Of a DNA stretch of 64,000 bases, positions 43,085 to 64,000 are shown in pieces. A model generated the notes under the pieces. That model ran no database searches, was not told where the DNA came from, and was given only the letters and a program-made list of their open reading frames with translations. Both the position numbers and the translations under genes were made by a program. Every line of letters starts with the position of its first letter. The stretch's first letter is position 1. The DNA lies in contig NZ_CP119677.1 in assembly GCF_029318685.1 (NCBI RefSeq), positions 744,001-808,000 of the forward strand, written 5' to 3'. This DNA is from Ruminiclostridium papyrosolvens DSM 2782 (lineage in GTDB: Bacteria; Bacillota; Clostridia; Acetivibrionales; DSM-1351).

Positions 43085-43193
43085 TATGTGCCTCCATTAA
43101 ATTGTTAAGTTTTAATAGCTAACTATTACCATATATTAAAAAATGCTTTATTGTCAAGAAGCTATGGTGTAAAGAAAATAAAATGATGCAATA

Positions 43194-45511: not shown

Positions 45512-47020
45512 ATGGATATTATTAATATAGTCTCAGCTTGTGATAATAATTATGCCCAGCATCTGGGAGTAATGATAACATCTCTTTTGGAGAATACGGC
45601 AGTAAGAGAAAATGTGGATTTTTTTGTGATAGATGGAGGCATCAGTAGTCGGAATAAGGAATGTCTGCGTGCTTGTGTTGAAAAGTATGGCTCACGAATT
45701 AGATTTTTAGAACTTAAACCTGAATTGTATCAGGATTTTAAAACACAATCATACTTTGGCTATGTGACATATTTTCGCATATTTATACCTGAAATTGTTG
45801 AGGCTTCGGTCAGGAAAGTCATATACCTTGATTGTGATATAGTCATTAAAGGTGACATCCGCAAACTATGGGAAAATGACATTTCCGAATACTTTGTGGC
45901 GGCGGTTGAGGATGTTGGCATTGATATTGGCGGAAATTTCGCAACCATGGTGAAAAAACACATTGGTATTCCGAGAAAAGGTAAATATTTTAATGCCGGG
46001 GTTTTATTAATTAATCTGGACAAATGGCGGGCTGACAAAACTACTGAGACAATAAGAAAATACTTGATTGAAAACAGGGAAAAAATATACTTTGCGGATC
46101 AGGATGGTCTAAATGCTGTTTTCAAAGACAGATGGCTGAAATTACCCATAGAGTGGAATCAACAGGCGGATATTCTGGAGCTTTTAAAAAGAAATAGAAT
46201 TGACAGGCCTGACGTGATGAAGGCGGCTCTCAATCCCATGATTATTCACTATACAAAGCAGGTTAAGCCATGGCAATATAAAGATTGTCATCCATTAAAG
46301 GAGGAATATCACAGGTATCTTCGCCTAACTCCATGGAATGATACTGCTCCAAAGGTTACTATTGTAGATGTACTTGGAAAATTCCTTGGGAAGACTCCGA
46401 TTGGAAGGGGTTTCTACCTGTATAAGAAGAAAATTAGAGATTACTTTATTATAGACAAGAGTTATTTTTCGGATAAATTGGTTGAATCCAAATTATTCAA
46501 GCTGATATACTCTTTGCTTTTTCCATTAATTTACACATATCTAAGACTTTTCTCAAGGCTTACGGTCCGTTCTTATTACATCCAAAATGAAAAACCTGCG
46601 GAAAATATAGCATCTGCCCTGGGAAGGCTGATTTGTGCAGCTCTTATTCCTGTCAGGTACACAATTCCTCGAGCCTTGAAGGAAGCCTCCCGAAAATACG
46701 CACTCTCTGATAAGTATACATGCCCCTGTTGTGGCTACAAATCATTTACAAAAGAGGCAATAGAGTCACATGAAGCCTGTAGAGTCTGCTACTGGGAGTA
46801 TGACTCCCAACAGCATGAAAATCCCTATTTTGACGGAGGCGCAAATGAAGTATCTCTGGTGCAGGCTCAGCATAATTTCATCCAGTTTGGGGCGACGGAA
46901 AGAAGGTTTACACATTTAATTTATTATTATAACCACGCACCATATTTGTTTTACAAAAAGGATAAGAACTGGCATCTTGTAGCCGGAAACTTAATGGAAA
47001 AGCAGAATCAGGGATATTAA
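45512..47020 (+). CDS. GT8 glycosyltransferase with C-terminal CPCC zinc-type domain (1)
   Basis: 502 aa from the ATG at 45512. Residues 1-275 are a GT8 (galactosyltransferase/LgtC-like) domain: NIVSACDNNYAQHLGVMITS, metal-binding DxD in VIYLDCDIVIKGD, FNAGVLLINL and ADQDGLNAVF. A hydrophobic helical stretch follows, then a C-terminal CPCC domain: TCPCCGYKSFTKEAIES, CRVCYWEYDSQQ, with GANEVSLVQAQHNF. It is paralogous to 54041. It transfers a sugar from an NDP-sugar, probably NDP-hexose or the heptose made by this cluster. The CPCC fusion is unusual and may bind the acceptor or a partner. Confidence 0.82.
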   Translation: MDIINIVSACDNNYAQHLGVMITSLLENTAVRENVDFFVIDGGISSRNKECLRACVEKYGSRIRFLELKPELYQDFKTQSYFGYVTYFRIFIPEIVEASVRKVIYLDCDIVIKGDIRKLWENDISEYFVAAVEDVGIDIGGNFATMVKKHIGIPRKGKYFNAGVLLINLDKWRADKTTETIRKYLIENREKIYFADQDGLNAVFKDRWLKLPIEWNQQADILELLKRNRIDRPDVMKAALNPMIIHYTKQVKPWQYKDCHPLKEEYHRYLRLTPWNDTAPKVTIVDVLGKFLGKTPIGRGFYLYKKKIRDYFIIDKSYFSDKLVESKLFKLIYSLLFPLIYTYLRLFSRLTVRSYYIQNEKPAENIASALGRLICAALIPVRYTIPRALKEASRKYALSDKYTCPCCGYKSFTKEAIESHEACRVCYWEYDSQQHENPYFDGGANEVSLVQAQHNFIQFGATERRFTHLIYYYNHAPYLFYKKDKNWHLVAGNLMEKQNQGY

Positions 47021-47047
47021 TTTAAAAGCTATCTGGGGGAATAGAAA

Positions 47048-49072
47048 ATGGAAGCTAAAAAGCAGATAAAATATTGTATTATAACAAATGATGATGATAT
47101 GCATACTCAAAAAAAAGAAATAGAAGCTGTCGGGTTCTATCAGTGGCTGAATGTATTCCAAGGACATATTTTCAAGGCAGGCCAAATAATAAGCCGTCTC
47201 AAAGACACTGATTTTGATATAATTCATGTACAATTAACACCAGAAAACCTTCCTGTTATACATTCAATAAGGGGCAGAATCGGTTATAGGTCAAAGACCA
47301 AGCTTGTTGTCAGTATGGATATTCCGGTAAAATGCTGGAAAAAATACTTCATTGATTTTTTAGAATTGACTGATGCTGTACAAAAAGCGGATTTTGTTTT
47401 TGCAACGGAATACAGCATATCAAGAAGACTGGAAGCATTAACAGGCGCACAGGTATATGAACTGGCATACCCGGCAGATATACAAAAAATCAAGACATAC
47501 TGCTCCGGGAATAATTCTCAAAAAAATAAGTATATAAATGTTATACATTCAGGCAAGCTAAATAACCTTTTCAGGGTTAAGAGGTTTGTAAAGAAATATA
47601 ATATGAGGCTCAGGGTGGTTTTTTATAAGAACGGGAACAAAAAATTAATTCGGAAATTAATGAAATATAATATTGAAACTGTTCAATGCAATAACGAAGA
47701 GGAATACTGCAAAGCATTAAATGAAAGTGCAGCACTTATAGATACCAATAGGTATCCCAACTATGGTAAGAGCATTATTTATGCTGCTGCCATGGGGATA
47801 ATAGTAATCGGGAATCAATTATCGGATGCATCCAGACGCTGCTATCCCTTTACATGGACCAAAAGAAATTTACTGACAGCATTAAAAGTAGTGTTAGATA
47901 TGCAAAAACATAACGGTGAAATGCTGAATTTCGTTTCAGAGAACGCACGTTCAAAAGTAGAATGTTACAATTGGTATAATATAGGAGAACGCTTTCTTCA
48001 GATGCTTTCCGGTAAGACTCAAGACAAAAAATTCTTAAAGCATGTCCGTAATTTCGGCACCGACCCTGACAGAACTGTATTTTACAGAGATATCCCTCAC
48101 ATGTTTGGAGACAAAGCCATTAATTTGGAAAAGAATGAGTTGGCTGTGGTTTGTCTTCTCAAAGACGGAATGGATTATTTGGAAGATTTTTTGGAGCATT
48201 ATAATAATCTGGGGGTAAAACATTTTGTATTTATTGATGATAATTCTACCGATGGTACCGTAGAGTTTCTAAAAGGCAAACCCAATGTTACCGTTTATCA
48301 GGTAAATATAAAGCCTTCTATGGTATATGAAAGTGAAATAAGGAGAGCCATTATACAGAGCCTCTTTGATAACTGCTGGTGTCTGTGCGTGGATGTGGAT
48401 GAGCTGTTTGACTACCCCTATTCTGATAGGATTTCTCTGGCACAATTTTTAGACTATCTTAACAAAAACGAATATACCGCAGTTGTTGCCTATATGCTGG
48501 ATATGTTTTCAAAAAACAGCAGGGTTTTAGATACGAACTATACAGATCGACTTGCAGATAAATATTGTTATTATGATATTTCTCAAGTCAAAAAGGGAAA
48601 ATATTTTAAGCACAACCTCAACTTTTGCAACTATAACGTACTTTCGGACAAGGGAATGAAATATTATTACGGAGGTATACGCAGAAAGCTGTTTGGAAAA
48701 ATCGTAATCAATAAAAAGGAAATTCCTCGTTATTTACTGATAAAGCATCCGTTGATGTTCATAGACCGTAAAATTGAGCCCATAACAAATCCTCATTTTT
48801 GTAACAAAGCACATATCGCAGATGTAAATGGACTTTTAAAACACTATAAATTCACAGATTCATTTATAGACAAGCTTAATGCAGAGCGGGATTACAGTTT
48901 TTTCGGAAGAATAGAGCACAATGAGTACTCGAAAATACTGCAAGGGAAAGAAAACATAAATTTCTATTCTAGTGATTCAAAAAAATTGGAGGATATGGAA
49001 TATTTAATTAAATCACACTTTTTACAGGTTTCGGGGAGATACTTGAATTATGTAAAGCAACAGGGGACTTAG
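47048..49072 (+). CDS. Two-domain glycosyltransferase (GT4-like plus GT2/GT92-like)
   Basis: 674 aa; GGGGGAATAGAAA before the ATG. The first ~330 residues look like a GT-B (GT4-like) fold: FDIIHVQLTPENLPVIHSIR and YGKSIIYAAAMGIIVIGNQL. The second half (from about residue 360) is a GT-A domain: VVCLLKDGMDYLEDFLEHYN, FIDDNSTDGT and CVDVDELFDYP with DVDELF as the metal site. Having two active domains in one chain suggests two successive sugar transfers. Genes on both sides are co-directional. Confidence 0.78.
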   Translation: MEAKKQIKYCIITNDDDMHTQKKEIEAVGFYQWLNVFQGHIFKAGQIISRLKDTDFDIIHVQLTPENLPVIHSIRGRIGYRSKTKLVVSMDIPVKCWKKYFIDFLELTDAVQKADFVFATEYSISRRLEALTGAQVYELAYPADIQKIKTYCSGNNSQKNKYINVIHSGKLNNLFRVKRFVKKYNMRLRVVFYKNGNKKLIRKLMKYNIETVQCNNEEEYCKALNESAALIDTNRYPNYGKSIIYAAAMGIIVIGNQLSDASRRCYPFTWTKRNLLTALKVVLDMQKHNGEMLNFVSENARSKVECYNWYNIGERFLQMLSGKTQDKKFLKHVRNFGTDPDRTVFYRDIPHMFGDKAINLEKNELAVVCLLKDGMDYLEDFLEHYNNLGVKHFVFIDDNSTDGTVEFLKGKPNVTVYQVNIKPSMVYESEIRRAIIQSLFDNCWCLCVDVDELFDYPYSDRISLAQFLDYLNKNEYTAVVAYMLDMFSKNSRVLDTNYTDRLADKYCYYDISQVKKGKYFKHNLNFCNYNVLSDKGMKYYYGGIRRKLFGKIVINKKEIPRYLLIKHPLMFIDRKIEPITNPHFCNKAHIADVNGLLKHYKFTDSFIDKLNAERDYSFFGRIEHNEYSKILQGKENINFYSSDSKKLEDMEYLIKSHFLQVSGRYLNYVKQQGT

Positions 49073-49125
49073 TTTTCAATTTTAATATTATTCAAAAATA
49101 TATTTAATAGGAAGGGAGCATCAAA

Positions 49126-50277
49126 GTGACAAAAACAATTGAAGCTTATCTCACGAAAGCATCAAAACTTACAGCTTCCGTTGAGCAATCCGCTTTTTAT
49201 ACTATTTTAGATGAAATTAAGCGAGTTTTAAAGAGAAGGCATACTGTATTTATTATCGGTAATGGCACAAGTGCTGCTACAGCCTGTCATTTTGCAAATG
49301 ACTTAATGAAAAATGCAGGAGGGATAATAGCCGGCAAGCTTGGATTTGGTATTAAAGTCATTGCACTACCGGAGAATATGCCATTTTTCACGGCAGTATC
49401 CAACGACATATGTTTGGAGCAGACATATACTCAATATCTGCGTGCGTATGCTTCGGCAGGTGATCTGGTTATGATATTTTCTTCCGGTACTCCACACAGA
49501 AATTTGATAGAAGCAGCAAAATTCAGTTATACAAGGGGGCTGCGAGTTGTTTCAATTACAGGGCAAGTACCGGGGACACTGGAAGAAAACTCCCATGTGC
49601 TGTATCACATTGGGAGCAGTATACCGGAACATGTTGAAGACATGCAGGAATTTTTGTGCCATAGTTGGGCAATCCTGCTGCGGGAAGAACTCACCCAGCC
49701 GGTAGTATTTCTTGACAGGGATGGAGTTATCAATGAGGACAGACCTGATTACATAAAGAGCTGGAATGAATTTAATTTTCTTCCCGGAGTGGCAGATGCA
49801 ATTAACAAGCTTAATGAAAAAGGTTATGCAGTAGTAGTCGTAACGAATCAGTCTGCAATTGGGCAAAAAATTATCAGTGAAGAAACGTTGGAGGAAATTC
49901 ATAAAAGAATGTGCGAAGCTTTGTTACAACAAGGTGCAATTATCAGCAAAATATACTATTGCCCACATACCTCCTCTGAAAACTGTACTTGCCGAAAACC
50001 GCAAAACGGATTGATTACAAAGGCATTTGATGAACTGCCGTTGGATATGGAAAATGGCATTTTAATAGGAGACAGGCTTACAGATATCGAAGCAGGTCTT
50101 AAATCTTCACTTACCACAATTTTATTGACACACGGCCGGAAGCACCGGGACATTATAAAGGCAACACCCCATTATTCGGCAAGGGATTTGACAGGGGCAG
50201 TTCAGTTAATACTTAGTGATGAATTCAAACCAAATATCAATAAGGAGGGGATATGCAAAGTAAGTCAGTTATTATGA
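49126..50277 (+). CDS. GmhA-GmhB fusion: sedoheptulose-7-P isomerase and heptose bisphosphatase
   Basis: 383 aa from GTG 49126 (GGAAGGGAG). The N-terminal SIS domain (FIIGNGTSAATACHFANDLM, FSSGTPHRNLIEAA) resembles phosphoheptose isomerase GmhA. The C-terminal HAD phosphatase (VVFLDRDGVINEDRPDYIK, VVTNQSAIGQKI, zinc loop CPHTSSENCTCRKPQ, LIGDRLTDIEAG) is GmhB-like. Together they catalyse the first and third steps from sedoheptulose 7-phosphate to heptose 1-phosphate. GmhB can be specific for alpha or beta anomers. The fusion is uncommon. Confidence 0.85.
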   Translation: MTKTIEAYLTKASKLTASVEQSAFYTILDEIKRVLKRRHTVFIIGNGTSAATACHFANDLMKNAGGIIAGKLGFGIKVIALPENMPFFTAVSNDICLEQTYTQYLRAYASAGDLVMIFSSGTPHRNLIEAAKFSYTRGLRVVSITGQVPGTLEENSHVLYHIGSSIPEHVEDMQEFLCHSWAILLREELTQPVVFLDRDGVINEDRPDYIKSWNEFNFLPGVADAINKLNEKGYAVVVVTNQSAIGQKIISEETLEEIHKRMCEALLQQGAIISKIYYCPHTSSENCTCRKPQNGLITKAFDELPLDMENGILIGDRLTDIEAGLKSSLTTILLTHGRKHRDIIKATPHYSARDLTGAVQLILSDEFKPNINKEGICKVSQLL

Positions 50278-50363
50278 AACCCGGATTGAGTGGTTAGCAG
50301 ACAACAGTAGTATCTCAGCTCATTGCTGCAGAGGTGCACGATGATGAAAAGGGAGGAGAGATT

Positions 50364-51353
50364 TTGGTTATTTCAAAAACACCGCTAAGAATTAGCTTTT
50401 TTGGCGGAGGTACTGATATGCAACAGTTCTGGAGGGAAGAAGAAGGGTGTGTTCTTAGCTGCTCTATAAACAAATACATCCATGTCATTGTTAATAAAAG
50501 CTTTGACCGGTTAATACACATTAAATATTTTGAACAAGAGGATGTTGATTCCATAGATAAAATAAAACATGATTTGGTACGTGAAACAATGCGTAAAGCG
50601 GGAATTAAAGGTGGAGTCGAAGTTGTGATTCTATCGGATATCCCTCATACCGGGAGTGGTTTAGGGTCTTCCAGCACTTTAACAGTGGGACTGCTTAATG
50701 CATTCTATACATATTGCGGAAAGAAGGTTTCTAAAGAGATCTTGGCGCAGCAGGCATGCGAAATTGAAATTGATATCCTTGGCAAGCCTATCGGAAAACA
50801 GGATCAATATATAGCTGCATATGGGGGATTGAACAAAATAGTATTTAAACCCAATGGGAGTGTACAGGTGCAACAAGTTGAACCTATATATAACATGTTA
50901 CCGGCTTTACGAAAGTATTTACTGTTGTTCTATACCGGAATCGGACATAAATCAGAAGATATTCTTGAAGAACAAACAAGACTTATTACCCACACAAGGC
51001 CTGTTTTGAGGAAAATAAAAGAACAGGTTAATGATGCTTTGAAAATTTTGTCCGGGGAAGACCTTGAGAAACTGGGAACATTAATGCAGGAGGGTTGGAG
51101 ATTAAAATGCCAACTTGCAAGCAAAATAAGCAACAACTTTCTTAACGAGTTAATTGAAAGAGCTTTCAAGGCAGGGGCTATGGGTGCAAAGATTACAGGG
51201 GCAGGTGGAGGCGGATTCCTTCTCCTTATCTGCAAACCGGAATTACAGGATTCTGTTCGCAATAAACTGGGTGATTTAAAAGAATTCAGCTTCGATTTGG
51301 AAGCAGGTGGAACCGAGATATTGATGGATAGTGAAAACTTGCGGTTTGCATAA
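50364..51353 (+). CDS. HddA-like heptose-7-phosphate kinase (GHMP family)
   Basis: About 329 aa from TTG 50364 (GGGAGGAG, 5-base gap); the GTG at 50334 lacks a site. The N-terminus ISKTPLRISFFGGGTDM is characteristic of HddA and related D-glycero-D-manno-heptose 7-phosphate 1-kinases. The GHMP ATP motif is GSGLGSSSTLTVGLLNAF, and the C-terminal GAKITGAGGGGFLLLICKP is present. It makes heptose 1,7-bisphosphate, the GmhB substrate. Confidence 0.87.
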   Translation: MVISKTPLRISFFGGGTDMQQFWREEEGCVLSCSINKYIHVIVNKSFDRLIHIKYFEQEDVDSIDKIKHDLVRETMRKAGIKGGVEVVILSDIPHTGSGLGSSSTLTVGLLNAFYTYCGKKVSKEILAQQACEIEIDILGKPIGKQDQYIAAYGGLNKIVFKPNGSVQVQQVEPIYNMLPALRKYLLLFYTGIGHKSEDILEEQTRLITHTRPVLRKIKEQVNDALKILSGEDLEKLGTLMQEGWRLKCQLASKISNNFLNELIERAFKAGAMGAKITGAGGGGFLLLICKPELQDSVRNKLGDLKEFSFDLEAGGTEILMDSENLRFA

Positions 51354-51382
51354 AAGTAATCGAGAGAAAAGAGGTAAATGCA

Positions 51383-51934
51383 ATGACCTTGTCAACAATG
51401 ATTGAAGACTTTAAAAAGCCTTTACATGCCATAGAACAAGTGCAAATTGAGAATTCTGCCCGGTATGTTCTGGAGGCATTGAAAAAAAACTGTAGTGTTT
51501 TTATTTGCGGAAATGGAGGAAGCGGTGCTAATGCCAATTTGTTTGCCGCTTCCATGTCAAAAATTGTAATGGATAGCTGTAATATTCGTGTAATAAGCTT
51601 AAATTCCAATATGGCAATCATTACTCATGTGGCTGAAAGTATGAATTATATTAATATATTCAGCAAGCAAATTGCAAACCTGGCACATGACTCAGACCTG
51701 CTGATTGCCATAAGCGGAAGCGGGAATTCTCCAAACATTTTGGAGGCAGTAGCCACTGCGAAGGCCTTGGGAATGTATACTATAGGTTTAACCGGGATGG
51801 GTGGCGGAAAGCTGTCTTCCATGGTGGATTTCCCAATTGCCGTGAATTCAGACAGCATGGAAATAATTGAAACAATACATACCGTGATTCTCCATGCCAT
51901 TTCTGTCTGGGTGGCGGAAAAGGTAGCCGAATGA
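51383..51934 (+). CDS. SIS-domain phosphoheptose isomerase (GmhA-like, second copy)
   Basis: 183 aa; AGAGGTAAATG before the ATG. Motifs VFICGNGGSGANANLFAASM and AISGSGNSPNILEAVATAKA are typical of GmhA (D-sedoheptulose 7-phosphate isomerase). It duplicates the function of the N-terminal half of the 49126 protein, so one copy may have a different substrate or be regulatory. It lies 29 bases after the kinase gene. Confidence 0.85.
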   Translation: MTLSTMIEDFKKPLHAIEQVQIENSARYVLEALKKNCSVFICGNGGSGANANLFAASMSKIVMDSCNIRVISLNSNMAIITHVAESMNYINIFSKQIANLAHDSDLLIAISGSGNSPNILEAVATAKALGMYTIGLTGMGGGKLSSMVDFPIAVNSDSMEIIETIHTVILHAISVWVAEKVAE

Positions 51935-51965
51935 AAATGTCATTTTCGATATCATGGAGGTAAAT

Positions 51966-52976
51966 GTGAATACAGATTATGAAAAAGGTACTGCAACCTT
52001 TGTAATGGCACATTGGAGTCAAAACCACGAAGAAAGCAGGGAACATCTGAAACAAGCCGTAGATGGAATACTAAGCCAAACCAACGATAATTGGCAAATT
52101 GTTATTGTGGACGATTTGTCTCCTTCCCTTGAAGCCAGAGAATACTTAAAAAAAATAAAAGAGCTTAAACCTGAAAAGATTCATCTAATATTTAAAGCAA
52201 CAAACGATGGACCGGGTATAAGCCGTAATATTGGTATTGAATGGGCATATAAAAATAATTCGCCTATTATCCTCTTCAATGATGCTGATGATGTATCCCA
52301 CCCAAAAAGACTGGATACTGTCAGAAGAATTTTTATGGGAGACCCCGAAGCCGGAGTTGTATATTCTACATTCAAAGTGATTGACGAAAATATGAAACCT
52401 GTTCCGGATAAAGCGTTGACTCCTTCCATACTTGAAATTCTTGAAGGGCACAGGGAGAACCCGGTGCAAGGAAAAGATGCGTGGATACAAATAGGTACTG
52501 TTAAGGGATATACCAATCTTACTTCATCAACGGCTGTAAAAACCCAGATAGCATATAAATATCCCTTCCCGGAAGTTATAGTATCAGAAGATCAGCATGC
52601 ATGGCTAAGGTATTCTGCAGGAGGAGGAAAGTTTGTATATGCCGCAGATATTCCCTCATTATATAGAATTCCTCAAGGCATTTCTACAGCTTCCCGGGCA
52701 AGGAGAGAAGACTTCTATTCAGAGAAAGCTGTTGTTGACACAGATGGCTTTTTAGAGGCAATCAGAATTTATGACAAAGCCATAGGTCTATGTCCTGAAG
52801 ACAGGGACAGCCTATTGATAAAATTTTATCTTAAACTGGCTGAGACACTTGGAAGAGAAGACCAAAACAGTTTAGCCAGAGCTCAAGTTGTCAAAGCTGC
52901 CGGGATTTCAAGAATCAAGACTGAGGAACAGATAGCTCTGAGGGGATTGCAGAGCCATCTATGGGCTAAAATATAA
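51966..52976 (+). CDS. Family 2 glycosyltransferase
   Basis: 336 aa from GTG 51966 (GGAGG, 5-base gap). It has a GT-A fold: AVDGILSQTNDNWQIVIVDD, DGPGISRNIGIEWAYKN and the metal site FNDADDVSHPKRLD. The acceptor region has SEDQHAWLRYSAGGGKFVYA. There is no membrane helix. A C-terminal helical tail (EDRDSLLIKFYLKLAETLG) resembles a TPR-like unit. It probably transfers the cluster sugar to the growing glycoside. Confidence 0.82.
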   Translation: MNTDYEKGTATFVMAHWSQNHEESREHLKQAVDGILSQTNDNWQIVIVDDLSPSLEAREYLKKIKELKPEKIHLIFKATNDGPGISRNIGIEWAYKNNSPIILFNDADDVSHPKRLDTVRRIFMGDPEAGVVYSTFKVIDENMKPVPDKALTPSILEILEGHRENPVQGKDAWIQIGTVKGYTNLTSSTAVKTQIAYKYPFPEVIVSEDQHAWLRYSAGGGKFVYAADIPSLYRIPQGISTASRARREDFYSEKAVVDTDGFLEAIRIYDKAIGLCPEDRDSLLIKFYLKLAETLGREDQNSLARAQVVKAAGISRIKTEEQIALRGLQSHLWAKI

Positions 52977-53004
52977 ATTTATTTACATAAAGGCAGGTAT
53001 TATT

Positions 53005-53991: not shown

Positions 53992-54040
53992 AACTACGGC
54001 GGTAAATATAATCAAACCACTTATTGTGAGGGAGGATAGT

Positions 54041-55399: not shown

Positions 55400-56945
55400 C
55401 TTGAAGCAGGAAAAGGATATGTATTGTGTTGAAAGTGAGATTGCAACCGTAGCAACTTTTTACAAGCGAAGGTATGAAATGGCATTTCTTGATGCTTGGA
55501 AGTTTGATTTCCTTCCCCCGGAGCAAAGTCCTGAGGGAACATTGGGAGGCAGGATATATACCGGTTTTATTGAGGATTGGTGGATGTGGGGACATTTGGA
55601 GGAGTTCCACGGTATTAGGGTTTTGTGGAACGAGGACTATGTGGGGAAGGACATTATGTACGTTGTAAAGACCGAGCTGGAACAAAATCGTCCAATATCA
55701 GTAATGATGGACTCCTTCTATCTGCCGTGGGCACATCAGTATGAAAAAGATACCCACTATGAGACATTAATGATGGTAGTTGGTATGGAAGAAAATGGGG
55801 TTTACTGTATAGACATACATTCTCTTAAACGGGTCGTATTATTGCCGTTAGACGCCTTTCTCAAGGGACATAAGCAATATACCGTTTTTTTACCCATGAG
55901 GGATGAGACAAAGGAAATAAACTGGCGAAAACTTTTCGGAGACAGGGCAAAAAGGCTCCTTGGAGAAGGGTATTCGATAAATTCCTTTGACAGCATGAGA
56001 GCTTTAGCTGACTGCGTGAGGGATACAATGGATTTCTCTATGGAGATAAAAGGGCATCATCATCCACTTAACGCAGGTATCATAAGAAATATTGAAACCC
56101 TTGGCAGGGGCAGATTCTTGTTTTCTTCTGCAATAAAGTATGTTGATGAGCTTTATCATATAAACAATTTTGATAAATTGTATGAAAATTTTAAAACCGT
56201 ATCCAACATGTGGCATTTAGTAAAGTACCAAATGATTAGGCACTTCTATACGGGTAGTCCGGATAAGGCGGCCTGCAAAATGATTGGGGAAAAAATCGAG
56301 GAGGCCTCAGTGTTAGAGGAGAAAATGGCACACTTAATCCTTGAATGCACAGAGAAAGGTATCGTGGCAGACACGGTGAAATTACCCTCAAAAACAGCTC
56401 CATCGGAAGAAAAAGTTAAGGATTTTGTTTTTGTCGAGTTGAAGGATTATCTGAATAATAAAGGTACCGGTGAAATGACGGAAACATATAACTTTAACAC
56501 TCTGGATTTTGAAGGGATGAAAGCTGCAGGCCCTGACAAATTACATTTCAGCCTTCCCTGTATACTTGAGGAAACCTATGATAATATCTCCTGCACCGGT
56601 CAGACCATTAAGATTCCTTCAGGTAAGTACAAGAGCATTATGCTTGTGGGGTGCTCTTTCTGGGGCAGCTTTTCGGAGAAAATGAGTGTAACATACTCGG
56701 ATGGACAAAAAAAGGAATTTTACATAGGCTTTACATGTTTCGACTCAGGAGTACCGTTATTTGGGGAGTCAGTATTTTACTCCGGAAATCTTATTGAAGT
56801 CAGGAAAGATATAGTCAGAAGAGGGGAGAATAAAGGACATTTGTTTCTGAGGGAACATGCTTTAGATGCAAACAAGGAAGTTACTGAAATACAGCTTCCT
56901 AATTACCCTAATATTCTCATATATGGAATTTCAATGGGAAAATAA
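55383..56945 (+). CDS. BtrH-type acyltransferase-like protein with C-terminal beta-sandwich
   Basis: 520 aa from the ATG at 55383 (GGAGG upstream). N-terminal ~200 residues resemble BtrH_N: putative nucleophile in DMYCVESEIATVATFY, then MMDSFYLPWAHQYEKD and THYETLMMVVGME with a His. In butirosin synthesis BtrH moves an acyl group from an acyl carrier protein to an amino sugar. A helical middle part follows, then a C-terminal domain (ISCTGQTIKIPSGKYKSIML, MSVTYSDGQKKEF) resembling carbohydrate-binding beta-sandwiches. The ACP gene lies two genes downstream. Confidence 0.72.
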   Translation: MLLDISLKQEKDMYCVESEIATVATFYKRRYEMAFLDAWKFDFLPPEQSPEGTLGGRIYTGFIEDWWMWGHLEEFHGIRVLWNEDYVGKDIMYVVKTELEQNRPISVMMDSFYLPWAHQYEKDTHYETLMMVVGMEENGVYCIDIHSLKRVVLLPLDAFLKGHKQYTVFLPMRDETKEINWRKLFGDRAKRLLGEGYSINSFDSMRALADCVRDTMDFSMEIKGHHHPLNAGIIRNIETLGRGRFLFSSAIKYVDELYHINNFDKLYENFKTVSNMWHLVKYQMIRHFYTGSPDKAACKMIGEKIEEASVLEEKMAHLILECTEKGIVADTVKLPSKTAPSEEKVKDFVFVELKDYLNNKGTGEMTETYNFNTLDFEGMKAAGPDKLHFSLPCILEETYDNISCTGQTIKIPSGKYKSIMLVGCSFWGSFSEKMSVTYSDGQKKEFYIGFTCFDSGVPLFGESVFYSGNLIEVRKDIVRRGENKGHLFLREHALDANKEVTEIQLPNYPNILIYGISMGK

Positions 56946-56974
56946 TCTCGTATTATTTATAAGTCAGGAGCTTA

Positions 56975-58495
56975 ATGATGATTATTGATTTGCTTGAAGA
57001 ATCAGTTGAAAAATACCGTGGCAAAATCGCCGTATGCTGTGACGAACGTAATATGACCTACGGAGAATTGTATATAAGAATTCTGAAGCTTTCTGAGGAA
57101 TTAACCGCAAAAGGTGTTAAAAAAGGGGATCACGTGGCACTGCTTCTGGCGAATTCAATAGAATTCATACTGTCATTTTTTGCGGTTAACCGCTGCGGAG
57201 GTATTATTATTCCGGTTTATGTGAATACCGGTGCAAACAAATTGGTGAGTATAGTAAATTTCTGTGATATCAAGTTTATCATTAGTTCAAAGCAATATCA
57301 GGATGTGTATAACGCAGTAACACGGGAAGTTTGTTTGAAAATGCAGAGTATATTCAGCGTCAATGAGGATGGTATCACAGAATGTATTACACTGGCAGAA
57401 GCTCCGCCATTGCAGGAAAAGGTGTATGAATCAAGTGAATGCAGTAATTGCCACGATTTGGCAGTTATACTTTTTTCGTCCGGCACCACAGGCATACCAA
57501 AAGGGGTTATGCTTTCAAATAACAATATTACCAGCAATGCAAAGGCGATTTCCGATTATCTGAGGTTATCACCCGACGACAAGGTGCTTCTGGTAAAAAA
57601 TATAAACCATGCCTCCAGTATAACGGGGGAAATGCTAATTTCATTATATAATGGGTGTTCATTGTACTTAACAGGAGATTTACCAACTCCTTCACTAATC
57701 CTACAACTAATGAGAAAAAAAGGGATTACCGTATTTTTTGCTGTTCCTTCCATATTATTTACATTGGTGAGACACAGGGACTTTAAAAGCTGCTGTTTTG
57801 AAAAGCTGAGAATTATGAACTTTTATGGAGCCTGCATAGGGTGTGAAGAGATTAAAATGCTCCATGAAAAATTCCCTAGGGTAAACCTGATTTATTCCTA
57901 CGGACTAACAGAGGCGTCTCCAAGAGTAACCTATCTGGAAGGTGAAGAGCTTATCAAAAGGCAAGGCTCGTCAGGAAAAGCCATTAAGGATATTGAACTT
58001 TTTATAGTTGATGAAGCCGGAAATTTTCAAGGCCCGGGAAGTGTTGGTGAAATCGCCGTCAAAGGCCCCAATGTGATGCTGGGATACTACAAAAACAGCG
58101 AATTGACTAAAAAAGTACTGGGGGATGGATTACTGCATACGGGTGATTACGGGTACAGGGATGAAGAAGGTTTTCTGTATGTGATGGGAAGGAAAGATAA
58201 CTTGATTATTCAATCAGGAAAAAATGTATATCCCGAGGAAATTGAAAAAGTACTGGGGAGCTGTTCCGGAATTGCTGAAGCTCTGGTAAGGGGAGAGAGC
58301 GACAGCTTCCTCGGTCAGAAAATCACAGCGTATTTGGTTGCGGAGGATGAATCCTCGACGGAGCTTAGGGAAGTGCTGCTGCATTGCAGGCAAAATCTTG
58401 AGGATTACAAGGTTCCGAGAGAAGTGTACTTTGTAGCCGCACTGGAAAAGAACCCCAACGGCAAAACTGTAAGAAATCAGGAAATAAAAATATAG
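56975..58495 (+). CDS. AMP-forming acyl/aminoacyl ligase
   Basis: 506 aa in the ANL superfamily. A3-like motif LFSSGTTGIPKGVMLS, then YSYGLTEASPRVTY, LLHTGDYGYRDEEGFLYVMG and the C-terminal catalytic Lys region KNPNGKTVRN. It activates a carboxylic or amino acid as an adenylate and should load the ACP encoded 6 bases downstream. The substrate cannot be read from the sequence. Confidence 0.88.
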   Translation: MMIIDLLEESVEKYRGKIAVCCDERNMTYGELYIRILKLSEELTAKGVKKGDHVALLLANSIEFILSFFAVNRCGGIIIPVYVNTGANKLVSIVNFCDIKFIISSKQYQDVYNAVTREVCLKMQSIFSVNEDGITECITLAEAPPLQEKVYESSECSNCHDLAVILFSSGTTGIPKGVMLSNNNITSNAKAISDYLRLSPDDKVLLVKNINHASSITGEMLISLYNGCSLYLTGDLPTPSLILQLMRKKGITVFFAVPSILFTLVRHRDFKSCCFEKLRIMNFYGACIGCEEIKMLHEKFPRVNLIYSYGLTEASPRVTYLEGEELIKRQGSSGKAIKDIELFIVDEAGNFQGPGSVGEIAVKGPNVMLGYYKNSELTKKVLGDGLLHTGDYGYRDEEGFLYVMGRKDNLIIQSGKNVYPEEIEKVLGSCSGIAEALVRGESDSFLGQKITAYLVAEDESSTELREVLLHCRQNLEDYKVPREVYFVAALEKNPNGKTVRNQEIKI

Positions 58496-58516
58496 ACTCA
58501 GTTGGAGGTACGCATA

Positions 58517-58807
58517 ATGGATAATACTGTTGAAGCAAAATTAAAAGAACTGATTATTAAAAATCTGCTGATGAAGGTGTCGGCACAAGATATAACTGAT
58601 GAAACGGATCTTGTAAGGGATTTCGTACTGGATTCCTTACAAATGCTGAGACTTGTATGGGATATAGAAATTGCATTCGGAATAAGTATTCAAAATCAGG
58701 ATTCTATGGTGAAGCTGGTTGCGAAGTATAAGCTGCTTAAAGAATATGTTTTGAAAAGGGTATCAGAAAGTACAGCAATGCCGGCAGGAACAGAAAAAAA
58801 TGTCTGA
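58517..58807 (+). CDS. Acyl carrier protein
   Basis: 96 aa from the ATG at 58517 (TTGGAGG, 8-base gap). The phosphopantetheine Ser is in FVLDSLQMLRL (Ser40). It carries the acyl or aminoacyl group between the ligase and the BtrH-like transferases. It overlaps the frame of the next gene slightly and is co-transcribed. Confidence 0.9.
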   Translation: MDNTVEAKLKELIIKNLLMKVSAQDITDETDLVRDFVLDSLQMLRLVWDIEIAFGISIQNQDSMVKLVAKYKLLKEYVLKRVSESTAMPAGTEKNV

Positions 58808-58832
58808 ATCCAAGGGGGGGAGATATACTGTG

Positions 58833-60017
58833 ATGAAATCCGAACAGCGGGAAAAGCTAACTGAACTTCTTTGGTATCTGAATGAGAATAATGATTTTTA
58901 CAGAGAACTTATGGGAAAGTTGCATATTGCATTAAACGGGGATGTGGAAAACAGCCTGAGAAAATTCCCGATATTACATAAAAAAGATATACGAGATAAT
59001 TACAATACCTATTTTTCCAAAACTAGCGAAATTAAGATAGAGGAATTTACCAGCGGATCCTCGGGGGTTCCCCTCAAGTGCCAGAAAACACGATATGAAA
59101 GGCTTATGGCTACGGCTAATATCTGGAAACAGAGATATATGCATGATCCGAAAGTAACTCTGGACAATTATTTTTCTTTTCATGACCTGAAAACTTATAA
59201 ACAGATTGGGAATTTGTTTTTATATGATCCCCCAAATATGAAGAAATGCTTTGAAAAAATGTGCAGTTTGGAACCAAGGTGGATTTCAGGCCCTATTTCA
59301 GCCATTGAAAAGTATGCAAGGTTAGTTGAAGAGGGATATTTAAGCTATGAAAATAAAACTATCCGCGTTTTTGAGAATATGGGGGAATTTGCAGAACCGG
59401 AACAGAGAGAGTATGTAGAAAAAATACTTGGATGTAAAACCATAAACCATTACGGCTGCATAGAATCATGGTGCATTGCGTATGAGTGCCCCCATGGCAG
59501 TATGCATGTACAGGACTCTATGATGTATGTTGAGCAGCTACCCTCCAATGCATGGACAGAGGAAAACGCAGGGGAGATTGTAATAACGAGCCTGTATAAT
59601 AAACTGATGCCTTTGATAAGGTATAATACCCACGATTTGGGCACTGTTGATTATTGCACCTGCAAATGCGGAAAAACTTCTCAGGTTATCAAGCTTCTTG
59701 GTGGGCGTACCACTGACATGATTCAGAACAGTAAAAACATTCCGGGAGAATTGTTTTTTAAACGCGGAGTTTATAAGCTCATCCGAAAGGGGTTTGATTG
59801 TATTGAAGGCTTCAAGGTTATGCAAACAACACCAAAGGATTTTATATTTTACATTGCAATGCAGGGCGACTATAAAGAAAATGTAACCAACTTTTTTACA
59901 GAATATATACAAAATGGATTAGGAGCAGACATCCGTATTCAATTCCAATTTGTTGACAGCTTACCGCCGCTTCCCTCCGGAAAGACAAAAATATTTCACT
60001 CCTTGATAAATATATAA
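58833..60017 (+). CDS. PaaK/CapK-like adenylate-forming enzyme
   Basis: About 394 aa; I chose the ATG at 58833 because AAGGGGGGAG lies about 7 bases upstream, over an earlier ATG at 58800. It has the phenylacetate-CoA-ligase/CoF-synthetase fold: FTSGSSGVPLKCQKTRYERL (ATP loop), NHYGCIESWCIAYECPHG (adenine/metal region), and LLGGRTTDMIQNSK. Possible metal Cys are in CTCKCGK. It may activate a second acyl group or load the ACP. Its C-terminus PPLPSGKTKIF keeps the catalytic Lys region. Confidence 0.8.
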   Translation: MKSEQREKLTELLWYLNENNDFYRELMGKLHIALNGDVENSLRKFPILHKKDIRDNYNTYFSKTSEIKIEEFTSGSSGVPLKCQKTRYERLMATANIWKQRYMHDPKVTLDNYFSFHDLKTYKQIGNLFLYDPPNMKKCFEKMCSLEPRWISGPISAIEKYARLVEEGYLSYENKTIRVFENMGEFAEPEQREYVEKILGCKTINHYGCIESWCIAYECPHGSMHVQDSMMYVEQLPSNAWTEENAGEIVITSLYNKLMPLIRYNTHDLGTVDYCTCKCGKTSQVIKLLGGRTTDMIQNSKNIPGELFFKRGVYKLIRKGFDCIEGFKVMQTTPKDFIFYIAMQGDYKENVTNFFTEYIQNGLGADIRIQFQFVDSLPPLPSGKTKIFHSLINI

Positions 60018-60052
60018 AAGAGTACTGCAAATCATAAGGAGGTGACATTAAT

Positions 60053-61804
60053 TTGATTAAAATAAAATCAAAACCCGTCAACACAATACTGGGATTTATG
60101 AAACCGTATACCGTATGTTTTGTAAATCTGTTTCTGACCATACTGGCGGCATCTTTTGTATATCTGATATATCCATACATTTTTGCGTTTATGATTGACA
60201 GAGTATTTTACAAGGGTGACTGGCAGCTATTCAAAATAGTGGTTATTGCATATACCATTATTTTTATCGGAGAACAGGCAATTCAGATTATTCTGAATAT
60301 GGAATGGGCATATCTTGTGACAAAATTCGTATTTGACATACGAAAGAAGCTTTTTGAAAGGATATTCAAGATAAAGGCAGCATTTTTAAGCAATGCGCAA
60401 ACAGGAGAGCTGATTGCTCGGGTAAACAATGATCCCCCACAGGTTATGGAGCTTTTGCACTGGCATGTATTTTTTACTGCATCAAATGTTATAAGACTGA
60501 TAATTTCTTTTGTTATTGTATTCTTTATTAATATAAAGCTGGCAGTGTTAATGCTGGTTGTTATACCATCTTCGGTTTATCTGTCACTGTATTTCAGCAA
60601 TAAAATTAAAAACATATATGAGCAATACCGCAAGGAATACGGCAAATACATCAGCTGGGTATACGAGATGCTGCAGGGGATGAGGGAAATCCAGCTGTTT
60701 GCGGCAGAGAGAAGCGTGGCCAGAAAGTTTGTGAAATTCAGTAAAAAAATGGTGCATGCAAGGGTCAAGGCAAGTAATATTGAGTTTATATCACAAACGG
60801 CCAATTCATTAATCACACTGTTGTCGGATTTGTTTCTCTATATTGCCTCCGCCATCCTTATTTCCCGCAAGGAATTGAGTATCGCAGGCTTCATAGCAAC
60901 CATGGAGTATTTCGGAATGTGCAACTACCTGTTAAGGGCTATTAATGATTCGAATTTTATGAGGCAGAACAATAAGGTGTCCATTAAGAAGGTATTGGAT
61001 ATATTGGATGAGGATATAGAGGATACGAGAAAAAACATGCCACCAATCAATATATCCCAAGGTGAGATAGAGTTTTCAGAGGTTTCATTTTGCTACGATA
61101 AAGATTTGCCTGTATTAAAAAATATTAATCTTCATATCAAAAAGGGAGAAAAAATATCCCTTGTCGGCATCAGCGGAGCAGGAAAAAGCACCATGGTGGG
61201 TTTATTGCAAAGATTTTACGAACCCATGGAAGGGTGCATAAAAATAGATGGAACAGATATATCCCAATGCGATTTAAAGTCCCTGAGAAGGAGTATTGGA
61301 GTTGTAAATCAGGAATCCATACTGTTTGACGGAACAATCAGGCAGAATCTTAAGCTGGGAAACCGCAAATCCTCGGAGGAGGAAATGTGGGAAGCATGTA
61401 AAAAAGCAAACATTGACGATTTTATAAGAAGTCTTCCCGATAAGCTTGATACTGTCATCGGCAGTGAAGGAATGAATATTTCGGGGGGACAAAGGCAAAG
61501 AATCGCAATCGCCAGGGTATTTCTAAAAAATCCTAAAATTATTGTTTTTGATGAAGCGACCTCTGCATTGGATTTTGAAGCCGAAACAGCTGTGAAAAAG
61601 GCCTGGCAGGAGCTAAGCGCAGGAAAGACATCTATTATTATTGCCCATAGGCTTTCTACTATTATGGATTCGGACCGGGTGGCCGTGCTTCACGGTGGGG
61701 AGATTGTATCCTTTGATACCCACAAGAGGCTTTTGGACTCCTGTGAACATTATAACAGGCTTTTTAGGGATCAATATCTGATTGAAGGATGTGCGACTGC
61801 ATGA
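60053..61804 (+). CDS. ABC exporter half-transporter 1
   Basis: 583 aa from TTG 60053 (AAGGAGGTG). There are six transmembrane helices in the first ~320 residues, then an ABC domain: Walker A GISGAGKST, signature ISGGQRQRIAIARVF, Walker B IIVFDEATSALDFE, H-loop IIAHRLST. Canonical catalytic residues suggest it is active. The next gene overlaps by four bases, so the two halves are probably a heterodimer that exports the cluster product. Confidence 0.9.
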   Translation: MIKIKSKPVNTILGFMKPYTVCFVNLFLTILAASFVYLIYPYIFAFMIDRVFYKGDWQLFKIVVIAYTIIFIGEQAIQIILNMEWAYLVTKFVFDIRKKLFERIFKIKAAFLSNAQTGELIARVNNDPPQVMELLHWHVFFTASNVIRLIISFVIVFFINIKLAVLMLVVIPSSVYLSLYFSNKIKNIYEQYRKEYGKYISWVYEMLQGMREIQLFAAERSVARKFVKFSKKMVHARVKASNIEFISQTANSLITLLSDLFLYIASAILISRKELSIAGFIATMEYFGMCNYLLRAINDSNFMRQNNKVSIKKVLDILDEDIEDTRKNMPPINISQGEIEFSEVSFCYDKDLPVLKNINLHIKKGEKISLVGISGAGKSTMVGLLQRFYEPMEGCIKIDGTDISQCDLKSLRRSIGVVNQESILFDGTIRQNLKLGNRKSSEEEMWEACKKANIDDFIRSLPDKLDTVIGSEGMNISGGQRQRIAIARVFLKNPKIIVFDEATSALDFEAETAVKKAWQELSAGKTSIIIAHRLSTIMDSDRVAVLHGGEIVSFDTHKRLLDSCEHYNRLFRDQYLIEGCATA

Positions 61805-63564
61805 AAAGTACAATTGCCAAGAGAATTGAAGTTGTTAAGGCCCTGAGGCCCATCGTGAAAAATATGAAAAACCAGTTGCTGCTCTTTGGAACATTAAAAA
61901 TCTGCCTGCTTGTGCTGGGGCTGACTGCCCCATACTTGTACAAGCTGCTGGTGGATGAAGTGCTGACCAAAGGAAGGTTTAGTTTATTAAGATGGATTTG
62001 TGCCGGATATATTACGATTTTTATCATTTCCAGTGGACTTATGTTCATACAAAGGATTAAGGGAAACAAATTCTTTTTCAAATTGCTGTTTGATATCAGG
62101 TACCGTATTTGGAATAACTATTTAAAAATGTATGTATACAAATACTCCAACTGCAACATCGGAGACCTTAAAAACCGTGTTGACGATGATACCAATGCAT
62201 TTGAGAAGTTTTTGGGACAGCATATTATTGATTATACCTACAACTGGGTATATGCGGTATTAAACGGAGCAGTCCTTTTGTTTCTCAACTGGAAACTGGC
62301 CCTGTTCGGATTTATTATGGTACCCTTTCCCTTCCTGATGTCCAATTGGATCGGAAAAAGGGTGCAAAACGCAAATGATAAGCAAAAGGTATTATGGGTT
62401 AAGTATGAAAAATGGATCTATTCCTGTATTCAGGGATGGAAGGAAATAAAAACCTTTACGGCGGAGAAAGTGAGCAGCATGAACTTTACCCACCACTGGA
62501 AAGAGATTGGGAAAAATTTCTTCGTTGTACAGATGCTTTTTAATATCAGCCGAACCTTTTGGGTTATAAAGGATGTATTTATTACAAAGGTAAGCCTTTA
62601 TTTCATAGGCGGTGTCCTCATTATGAATGGTGAAATAACTATCGGCAGCCTTTTGGTATTTATGAAATATTATCAGGGATTATTTGACGGAGTCAGTGAA
62701 GTTAACCGTCTGGATATAGATTTATACAATGATATACCTTCTATAGACCGGGTTCTGGAAGTCTTGATTCAGAAGGATGAAATAAAGAGGGGAACTCTCC
62801 GGCCGGAGCGATTCATGCCCGGTATAGAGTTCAGAAATGTCACGTTTGCATACGACGGAAACAATAAGGATGTACTGAAAAAGCTTTCCCTTGAAATCAA
62901 ACCTGATGAACGGATTGCCATTGTTGGAAGAAGCGGTTCAGGGAAAACTACCCTTGTAAAATTGATTCTTGGGTTGTGCCATGCACGGGAAGGGAATGTC
63001 ATCATAAGCGGGATTGATATTAAAGAGCTTCACCCCTCGTTTCTGCACCATCATGTGGGAGCTGTAATGCAGGACAATTACCTTTTCAATCTTTCAATAC
63101 GTGAAAATCTGCTTATGGCTAAGCCGACTGCAACAGAGGCTGAAATCCGAAAGGCATGCGAATTGGCGTACATAGCTGAGTTTATTGAGAGTTTGTCGGA
63201 GGGCTATGAAACCATTATAGGTGAGAAGGGAATCAGGCTTTCGGGAGGACAGAAGCAAAGATTGTCTATAGCCAGAACTTTTCTTGCTGATCCCAAGATT
63301 ATCATTTTTGATGAGGCTACTTCTGCTCTGGACCACGAATCCGAAAAGGTTATCCATAAGGCCATAGAAAATATCTCCCGTAACAGGACCGTTATCATAA
63401 TAGCCCACAGGCTTTCTTCAATTCTCTCGGCAAACCGGGTTCTTGTACTGGATAATGGCGAGATTGTAGGAGAAGGGCATCATTCGGATTTGTACGGAAA
63501 AAACGGAGTCTATGACATATTATTTAAGCAACAGTATGAAATTCAGAAGCTGACAGCATCGTAA
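61801..63564 (+). CDS. ABC exporter half-transporter 2
   Basis: 587 aa from the ATG at 61801 (GAAGGA, 10-base gap; ATGA overlap with the previous gene). Same layout: six helices, then Walker A GRSGSGKTT, signature [15 protein letters not shown], Walker B IIIFDEATSALDHE, H-loop IIAHRLSS. There is no C39 peptidase domain, so export does not include leader removal. It pairs with the 60053 protein. Confidence 0.9.
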   Translation: MKSTIAKRIEVVKALRPIVKNMKNQLLLFGTLKICLLVLGLTAPYLYKLLVDEVLTKGRFSLLRWICAGYITIFIISSGLMFIQRIKGNKFFFKLLFDIRYRIWNNYLKMYVYKYSNCNIGDLKNRVDDDTNAFEKFLGQHIIDYTYNWVYAVLNGAVLLFLNWKLALFGFIMVPFPFLMSNWIGKRVQNANDKQKVLWVKYEKWIYSCIQGWKEIKTFTAEKVSSMNFTHHWKEIGKNFFVVQMLFNISRTFWVIKDVFITKVSLYFIGGVLIMNGEITIGSLLVFMKYYQGLFDGVSEVNRLDIDLYNDIPSIDRVLEVLIQKDEIKRGTLRPERFMPGIEFRNVTFAYDGNNKDVLKKLSLEIKPDERIAIVGRSGSGKTTLVKLILGLCHAREGNVIISGIDIKELHPSFLHHHVGAVMQDNYLFNLSIRENLLMAKPTATEAEIRKACELAYIAEFIESLSEGYETIIGEKGIRLSGGQKQRLSIARTFLADPKIIIFDEATSALDHESEKVIHKAIENISRNRTVIIIAHRLSSILSANRVLVLDNGEIVGEGHHSDLYGKNGVYDILFKQQYEIQKLTAS

Positions 63565-63585
63565 CAGATTGGGAGGATTTTTATT

Positions 63586-64000
63586 ATGAGATTAGAAATA
63601 GAGCCGGTTCATGGTGCTTACCGCAATTGTCTGGAAGACATCTTGGCTACAACCGCAACATACTTCCAAAATGACTTTGAGCTGATGTTTGCAGAATCCT
63701 GGGGGTTTACTTTTTATCCAGCAATGAGGAATTTAAATACAATACTGGGAAAACGTCTGGATGCAGGGAAAAACGACTATTTTGGCAATTTGGAGAGATT
63801 TCATGGGATTAGGACGCAATGGCACTTTAAAAAGACAATTGATGAGTACGAGATGATGATAAAGGAAGAACTTTTGGCGGGGAATCCCGTTGCAGTTTTC
63901 ATGGATGCTTACTGGCTGCCATGGACGAAAACCTACAAAGTTTATCATGCTCCCCATTACTGCCTTATTATAGGAAAAGATGACAATTCTGATTTTCTGT
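63586..64000 (+). CDS. Second BtrH-type protein, partial
   Basis: Runs off the right edge; 138 codons visible. The ATG at 63586 follows TTGGGAGGA. RNCLEDILATTATYFQND aligns with YCVESEIATVATFYKRR of the 55383 protein around the putative catalytic Cys, and FMDAYWLPWTKTYKVYH with APHYCLIIG parallels DSFYLPWAHQYEKDTHYETL. It is therefore a second BtrH_N-type acyltransferase-like protein. The cluster continues beyond the window. Confidence 0.75.
   Translation, partial: MRLEIEPVHGAYRNCLEDILATTATYFQNDFELMFAESWGFTFYPAMRNLNTILGKRLDAGKNDYFGNLERFHGIRTQWHFKKTIDEYEMMIKEELLAGNPVAVFMDAYWLPWTKTYKVYHAPHYCLIIGKDDNSDFL

Follow-up and report, generated by a model that had tools for sequence, protein, structure and literature searches.

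The 64,000-nucleotide stretch of the Ruminiclostridium papyrosolvens DSM 2782 chromosome analyzed here (the window; G000:C1:744001-808000 in a 5.03-Mb genome on a single contig) holds the left part of a biosynthetic island in which a conserved set of predicted heptose genes runs together with nonribosomal peptide synthetase (NRPS) and polyketide synthase (PKS) genes. We think it probable, with some reserve, that the island encodes one pathway to a heptose-bearing product of a hybrid NRPS-trans-acyltransferase (trans-AT) PKS, which would be released by BtrH-type proteins, carry a sugar activated by a GalT-type enzyme, and leave the cell through an ABC exporter. What the computations show directly is the gene content, the order of domains, the limits of the island, the conservation of gene order, and the GalT branch; the activities of all enzymes, the order of the chain, the sugar, and export are predictions from sequence.

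The limits of the island emerge from alignment with genome G022, whose flanks are ~89-92% identical to those of the host: the left-hand alignment stops at position 43166 of our sequence and resumes at 92939, with 75 bp in between, so that window positions 43167-92938 (G000:C1:787167-836938, 49.8 kb) are exactly missing there. These alignment limits mark a two-component gene pair and 25 co-directional genes as a single presence/absence block, which runs past the end of the window on the same chromosome. The genes are as follows, with positions beyond 64000 given as window equivalents.

43194-44561, minus strand: histidine kinase (Pfam), inside the island and divergent from the operon
44582-45220, minus strand: LuxR-type response regulator (Pfam), inside the island and divergent from the operon
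45512-47020, plus strand: GT8a, GT8 glycosyltransferase with a C-terminal CPCC domain (Pfam PF01501, PF14206)
47048-49072, plus strand: glycosyltransferase with Glyco_tranf_2_4 in its C-terminal half (Pfam)
49126-50277, plus strand: SISHAD, fusion of a SIS domain (SIS_2) and a GmhB-type phosphatase (NF006506 of NCBIfam, at cut-off)
50334-51353, plus strand: HddA-like GHMP kinase, predicted heptose kinase (NCBIfam NF049969 best, below cut-off; PDB 3k85)
51383-51934, plus strand: predicted GmhA-like SIS isomerase (NCBIfam, residue alignment)
51954-52976, plus strand: GT2, candidate heptosyltransferase (Pfam; conserved place in four other loci)
53005-53991, plus strand: GalT-type nucleotidylyltransferase, candidate heptose 1-phosphate uridylyltransferase (TIGR00209 above cut-off, tree, 12 diagnostic columns)
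54041-55399, plus strand: GT8b, second GT8-CPCC protein, 41% identical to GT8a (Pfam)
55395-56945, plus strand: BtrL, long BtrH-like protein of 516 aa with an AziU2-like C-terminal part (sub-cut-off Pfam, alignment)
56975-58495, plus strand: AMPL, predicted acyl-activating AMP ligase (Pfam PF00501)
58514-58807, plus strand: ACP1, carrier protein (Pfam PF00550; the frame opens at 58502)
58800-60017, plus strand: PaaK-like adenylate-forming enzyme (NCBIfam PaaK-like families, all below cut-off)
60053-61804, plus strand: ABC1, predicted exporter protein (Pfam)
61789-63564, plus strand: ABC2, predicted exporter protein (Pfam)
63586-64548, plus strand: Btr2, BtrH-type protein of 320 aa (cut by the window at 64000)
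64575-65549, plus strand: Btr3, BtrH-type protein
65557-66588, plus strand: Btr4, BtrH-type protein
66777-68123, plus strand: PF00144 serine hydrolase
68116-72663, plus strand: NRPS1
72686-78961, plus strand: NRPS2
78983-85192, plus strand: PKSN
ending at 85528, plus strand: p111, 111-aa protein
85538-90304, plus strand: PKS2
90304-92670, plus strand: PKS3
92639-92908, plus strand: ACP2, free carrier protein

The 25 plus-strand genes from 45512 to 92908 are separated by gaps of -32 to 56 nt, with a single exception of 188 nt. The co-directional run of named parts that the original prediction placed from 45512 onward is borne out by open reading frames (ORFs), Pfam, and NCBIfam, with all parts in frame and gaps of -16 to 56 nt up to 64000; the run does not end there, and the stretch then described is only the left ~18.5 kb of the island. 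The histidine kinase and response regulator are likely the regulators of the operon.

The pfl-activating-enzyme gene pflA (window 41656-42378) and a large glucan-synthase-like gene on the right are found in all ten other genomes of the genus, lying less than 2 kb apart in nine of them, 14.5 kb apart in G024, and 50.7 kb apart here; at the same site G017, G020, and G021 carry other small ORFs. Comparison of the two island junctions yielded no common word of 10 or more bases, and no tRNA genes were found in the scanned stretches of the window, L008, and L197. Base composition gives the island no mark (0.402, against 0.377 in the window to its left and 0.388 in the right flank), and hence both gain here and loss elsewhere are possible.

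Five of the genes form a module in the order SISHAD, GHMP kinase, SIS, GT2, and GalT. The three types of heptose enzyme that had been proposed here, GmhA, GmhB, and HddA, each have a candidate, but the GmhB model NF006506 is the sole heptose-named model to reach its cut-off, with 178.6 bits on SISHAD against 178; GmhA TIGR00441 scores 113 bits against 209, and HddA NF049969, the best family for the kinase, 141 bits against an equivalog cut-off of 600. The best PDB match of the kinase is 3k85, named a heptose kinase (E 1.2e-36). Together, SISHAD, the kinase, and the SIS protein would convert sedoheptulose 7-phosphate to heptose 1-phosphate.

Module genes recur at 51-68% identity in G001, G013, G029, and Anaerobacterium chartisolvens. 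G001 keeps this order but adds an NAD-dependent epimerase behind SISHAD (identities 60, 61, 55, 67, and 63%), G013 is a frameshifted draft with a G001-like order that includes the extra epimerase, and G029, a 9498-bp contig, shows SIS, GT2, and GalT before its end. A. chartisolvens carries SISHAD, epimerase, GHMP kinase, SIS, and GT2 at 53-68%, and genes for an acyl ligase and a carrier protein lie in the neighborhood. SISHAD is 60-63% identical in G001 and A. chartisolvens, and GT2 keeps its place in all four loci at 64-68%. In G001 and G013, PKS/NRPS genes flank the module on one side, and on the other are an A-T-BtrH protein and a BtrH protein that weakly matches a dehydratase; an A-T-BtrH protein also lies beside the module of G029. 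Adenylation-carrier (A-T) or NRPS genes and BtrH genes thus adjoin the module in four of five loci including our own, and this recurrence in three of the four other genomes suggests that heptose and carrier-protein chemistry belong together.

Some further observations concern these relatives. The G001 locus holds an ADH-synthase-type aldolase and a 3-dehydroquinate-synthase-II protein (L171:16131-16946, L172:3317-4411), which also match, below cut-off, the bagremycin/ferroverdin 3,4-AHBA models, so that this locus possibly specifies an aminohydroxybenzoate unit. The alignment scan of genome contigs with GT2 gave five loci, one of which, L184 (35%, residues 32-116), was left out of the comparison; the same scan of viral contigs gave none. 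Two GT2 homologs (54-55%) in a Limisphaerales and a Chitinispirillaceae metagenome-assembled genome, at L181:9989-12100 and L182:3876-6077, adjoin a protein starting ILAGDIGGTNTT, which we take to be a glucokinase-like start. Kinase pattern scans of genome and viral contigs gave no match, with patterns that were not conserved stretches. In a sample of the phylum, SISHAD matched in 33 of 398 genomes at E 1e-25, our own included; the best other match is 32% over part of the protein, with an internal stop, and the rest mainly cover the HAD half.

Ordinary heptose loci depend on a nucleotidyltransferase. The island has no HddC and bears no signature of it, a point that the original prediction did not raise; the host genome has ten PF00483 places, all outside the island, and no rfaE_dom_II match above cut-off (one falls below it). 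It is possible that one of the ten outside places serves the island's heptose. The module does contain a GalT-type protein that scores above the TIGR00209 cut-off and has the HPHGQ active site. In an unrooted tree of 18 rows (16 different), the four module GalTs stand on one side of a branch with support of 100/99. Twelve alignment columns are fixed in these four and absent from the 12 others, where 495 control subsets give at most three. Of the 12 distinct comparison rows, nine adjoin an ORF whose start we take to be galactokinase-like (in L143 judged from part of it); the module GalTs have heptose genes as neighbors. The diagnostic columns include A139 and I141, just before HPHGQ, and G295 in the sugar loop, which aligns with Tyr316 of Escherichia coli GalT, next to Glu317, both residues of known role. 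A GalT specialized in this way would turn heptose 1-phosphate into a nucleoside diphosphate (NDP)-heptose, probably UDP-heptose by exchange with UDP-glucose. From sequence, we put forward heptose 1-phosphate as its substrate tentatively, as an assignment that we would expect to fail more often than to hold.

The right-hand part of the operon encodes an assembly line, read from Pfam domains and motifs. NRPS1 is C-A-T followed by a second condensation-type domain with the motif HHLVVDGVSW, and NRPS2 is C-A-T, a condensation-type domain with the motif DMLIADASS, and A-T; we take these motifs to mark epimerization (E) and heterocyclization (Cy), respectively. PKSN is KS-T-C-A-T plus a further ~200 aa, PKS2 is KS-DH-KR-T, and PKS3 is KS-T. 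All three KS domains have their Cys, His, and His motifs intact, and the DH motif is present. RhiE-like and CurL-like linkers lie behind the KS domains, and the island has no AT domain (15 AT places lie elsewhere in the host genome); together these features mark the PKS as trans-AT. The nine-letter codes of the A domains are DVANFALVY, DILQMGMVW, DLYNLSLIW, and DILQIGVVW, of which we take the second and fourth to be Gly-like and the third to be Cys-like. If the line is colinear, its chain would be acyl-D-X-Gly-thiazoline-(ketide)-Gly-(alkene ketide)-(ketide). Longer proteins elsewhere have a match to p111 in their last ~100 aa; in L171_03 the part in front is an acyltransferase, and p111 is predicted to be such a C-terminal piece standing without an AT.

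Elsewhere in the host genome, very large AT-containing open frames of the PKS type, the longest of 6938 aa, lie at G000:C1:4551735-4615506 (L161-L167), and a p111-like gene with a BtrL-like gene (L106) lies ~30 kb beyond them. We also considered an N-acyl-D-Asn prodrug system, since the PF00144 hydrolase precedes a C-A-T-E NRPS. Prodrug systems of the ClbP/ZmaM type combine a C-A-T-E starter with an Asn code and a membrane-bound PF00144 peptidase. The idea was dropped because DVANFALVY is not Asn-like and the hydrolase shows no N-terminal signal by eye. Among PDB entries the hydrolase matches 2qmi best (E 2.6e-38), and ClbP ranks lower (E 2.1e-19). A separate locus, L139 (G032:C83 12013-19693), encodes a PF00144-like protein of 1046 aa, which starts like a signal sequence and includes hydrophobic stretches as well as an ABC portion; next to it lies a C-A-T-E NRPS with the Asn-type code DLTKIGEVG, and presumably this is a system of the ZmaM type.

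No thioesterase was found by Pfam among the 25 genes, and the island has four BtrH-type proteins, BtrL, Btr2, Btr3, and Btr4, rather than the two first counted, with Btr3 and Btr4 lying beyond the window. The Cys, His, and Asp/Glu residues of BtrH have catalytic roles. Of 18 aligned members, all have the Cys, and 16 have the second His, which is replaced in BtrL (Thr) and in its best homolog, L102_11 (Tyr); Btr2, Btr3, and Btr4 keep the Cys, both His, and the Asp/Glu. BtrL scores 20.3 bits against a BtrH Pfam cut-off of 29.7, and its C-terminal part gives a weak AziU2/Azi28 match (E 1.3e-5 to 1.5e-5). Btr2 matched no PDB sequence at E 0.1. A BtrH-type domain stands at the C-terminus, behind a carrier domain, in all five scanned fusions (NRPS, PKS, ligase-carrier, A-T pair), where a thioesterase would sit; in L132_02, BtrH_N is below and Peptidase_C39_2 above cut-off, and in L128_01 the last carrier was placed from the locus reading. 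In G032, PKS, Btr4-like, carrier, and BtrL-like genes follow one another. These fusions and this gene row suggest that Btr2, Btr3, and Btr4 act as transacylases or release enzymes. In PMC10318531, BtrH_N is placed near families C39 and C70, and BtrH is described as an ACP:aminoglycoside acyltransferase. In a further host locus (L107, G000:C1:902001-922000), an AMP-ligase-like gene and a carrier-like gene accompany two ~520-aa proteins that match only the AziU2-like part of BtrL.

In the proposed pathway, papain-like transacylases of the BtrH type would replace a thioesterase and transfer to an acceptor either the chain bound to its carrier or a side acyl group borne by ACP1; GT2 and the two GT8 enzymes would build the glycoside, and the ABC pair would export it. 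The most likely product, judged from the gene set, would be an exported, acylated, thiazoline-containing polyketide-peptide glycoside with a heptose. The acylated, exported heptose glycoside of the original prediction survives as a part of this, with heptose, acyl-carrier, BtrH, and ABC genes in one operon, but the product class is too small because the operon continues into a hybrid NRPS-trans-AT PKS. Of its two adenylate-forming enzymes, AMPL is confirmed by PF00501, whereas Pfam gives no match to the PaaK-like one at E 0.001. BtrH-type proteins, to which it gave the transfer of an acyl group to an amino sugar, are indeed present, but BtrL, the only one wholly inside the window, has no conserved second His, and priming of the NRPS, instead of acylation of an amino sugar, may be the role of ACP1.

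Comparison with known systems places these parts more closely. The butirosin side-chain system (BtrH/BtrI/BtrJ) resembles the island in having a BtrH-type papain-like domain, a free carrier, and an adenylate-forming enzyme in one cluster; the island differs in its four BtrH-type proteins, full NRPS-PKS, and one copy without the second His, and Pfam found no aminocyclitol or 2-deoxystreptamine acceptor families among the 25 genes. With the GDP-heptose pathway (GmhA-HddA-GmhB-HddC), the module shares a SIS isomerase, a GHMP kinase, and a GmhB-type phosphatase, but it has no HddC, its GmhB is fused to a second SIS domain, it contains GalT, and the GmhA-type Glu is missing. Trans-AT hybrids, of which the leinamycin type is an example, are alike in having KS domains without AT and a Cy domain followed by PKS, and unlike in that the island has no thioesterase and has BtrH-type proteins and a heptose module. 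Known routes to NDP-heptose use an isomerase, a kinase, a phosphatase, and a nucleotidyltransferase. The enzymes that make NDP-heptose from NTP are, we assume, of the HldE type. As in septacidin biosynthesis, heptose would here enter a natural product, but no such nucleotidyltransferase reaches cut-off. PMC11573728 describes manno-heptose in cell-wall components, in protein heptosylation, and in natural products such as septacidin, and divides the NDP-heptose nucleotidyltransferases, which use NTP, into three types: mono-, di-, and tridomain. Closthioamide of R. cellulolyticum, probably of the same genus, shares carrier-protein-based assembly; its pathway is NRPS-independent and uses the AANH enzyme CtaC, according to PMC6772006. 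No AANH family occurs among the 25 genes at E 0.001 and a modular NRPS is present, which rules closthioamide out, in agreement with the original prediction. Our search of open-licence papers, which does not show absence from print, recognized no paper on this cluster and nothing joining GalT, heptose, and a biosynthetic gene cluster.

Several observations weigh against the single heptose pathway that we favor. Canonical GmhA has catalytic Glu65 and His180, and both SIS proteins are without some of these residues: at the Glu65 position the stand-alone SIS has S, V, I, A, and L in our locus, G001, G013, A. chartisolvens, and G029, respectively, with His180 kept in all five, while SISHAD has Asp in three of three, a differing phosphate loop, and, at the His180 position, Gln in our copy and His in the other two. 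It is possible that SIS and SISHAD form one mixed isomerase, or that a different heptose epimer is made. BtrL, which lacks the second His, gives a mean pLDDT of 33.7 when folded alone; it may be structural or work through its other His. The substrate of the first A domain (DVANFALVY) is unassigned, the 9.5-kb G029 contig has an A-T pair and no full NRPS, and GT2 homologs at 54-55% in Limisphaerales and Chitinispirillaceae metagenome-assembled genomes have no heptose genes in the stretches seen. Finally, the A. chartisolvens module has no adjoining GalT, and the one GalT found in that genome lies beside galactokinase-like and galE-like genes, as read from G026, which we take to be that genome since the GalT coordinates agree.

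This last case also favors a reading in which GalT does no more than supply the GT8 enzymes with UDP-galactose, made from UDP-glucose and galactose 1-phosphate, with the heptose activated elsewhere or not made at all. The above-cut-off galT match agrees with it, as do a host galactokinase (G000:C1:1443407-1444573) and the ten PF00483 places that could activate heptose. Against it, GalT adjoins heptose genes in four of five modules, stands on its own branch, and has changes in its sugar loop and next to the catalytic His. In addition, GalT was found at E 1e-20 in none of the ten other genomes of the genus, nine of which have galactokinase; with galactokinase in 10 of 11 genomes and GalT in our own alone, the genus seems to handle galactose 1-phosphate in another way. 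We regard UDP-galactose synthesis as a serious contender that nevertheless falls short of even. Two neighboring pathways, one from the heptose, glycosyltransferase, and ABC genes to a surface or exported glycolipid and the other from NRPS-PKS to an unrelated compound, seem unlikely: the 188-nt gap, the largest, does fall between the halves (between Btr4 and the serine hydrolase), and no PKS appears in the 21 kb seen of A. chartisolvens, but all genes share one strand, a consensus scan of the gap called no terminator-like or promoter-like site on the plus strand, a single insertion covers both halves, and the module joins A-T/NRPS and BtrH genes in three other loci. The gap holds a short ORF with a peptide that is hydrophobic by eye. 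Less probable again is a role of the heptose genes in making a cell-wall or S-layer glycan that is retained on the surface. Of 397 other genomes sampled from the phylum, 24 have distant kinase homologs (28-43%), and an HddC-type signature lies near by, as in ordinary GDP-heptose loci, in at least six of 12 loci examined (of 25 matches; the strict pattern missed at least one visible case, L096_08). The GalT motif, however, is found in none of these 12 within the stretches seen, close homologs (51-68%) lie beside A-T/NRPS and BtrH genes in three of four other loci, and the Pfam scan of the 25 genes gives no family for S-layers or wall anchoring.

A hybrid NRPS-PKS glycoside is a known kind of product, and it is the NDP-heptose route that is possibly new. 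We propose, as a tentative reading that is less likely than not to hold, that GalT makes UDP-heptose by exchange with UDP-glucose, not from NTP, and feeds a heptosylated trans-AT polyketide-peptide with BtrH release; SIS and SISHAD may act in this route as one mixed isomerase. If this is true, UDP-heptose, whose role, like that of CDP-heptose, remains elusive according to PMC11573728, would gain a defined use. The conserved heptose-GalT module near NRPS/PKS and BtrH genes in anaerobes would offer a testable candidate enzyme for UDP-heptose, the recurrent carrier-BtrH fusions suggest how NRPS/PKS chains could end where no thioesterase is present, and the island marks a compound that can be searched for by mass spectrometry.

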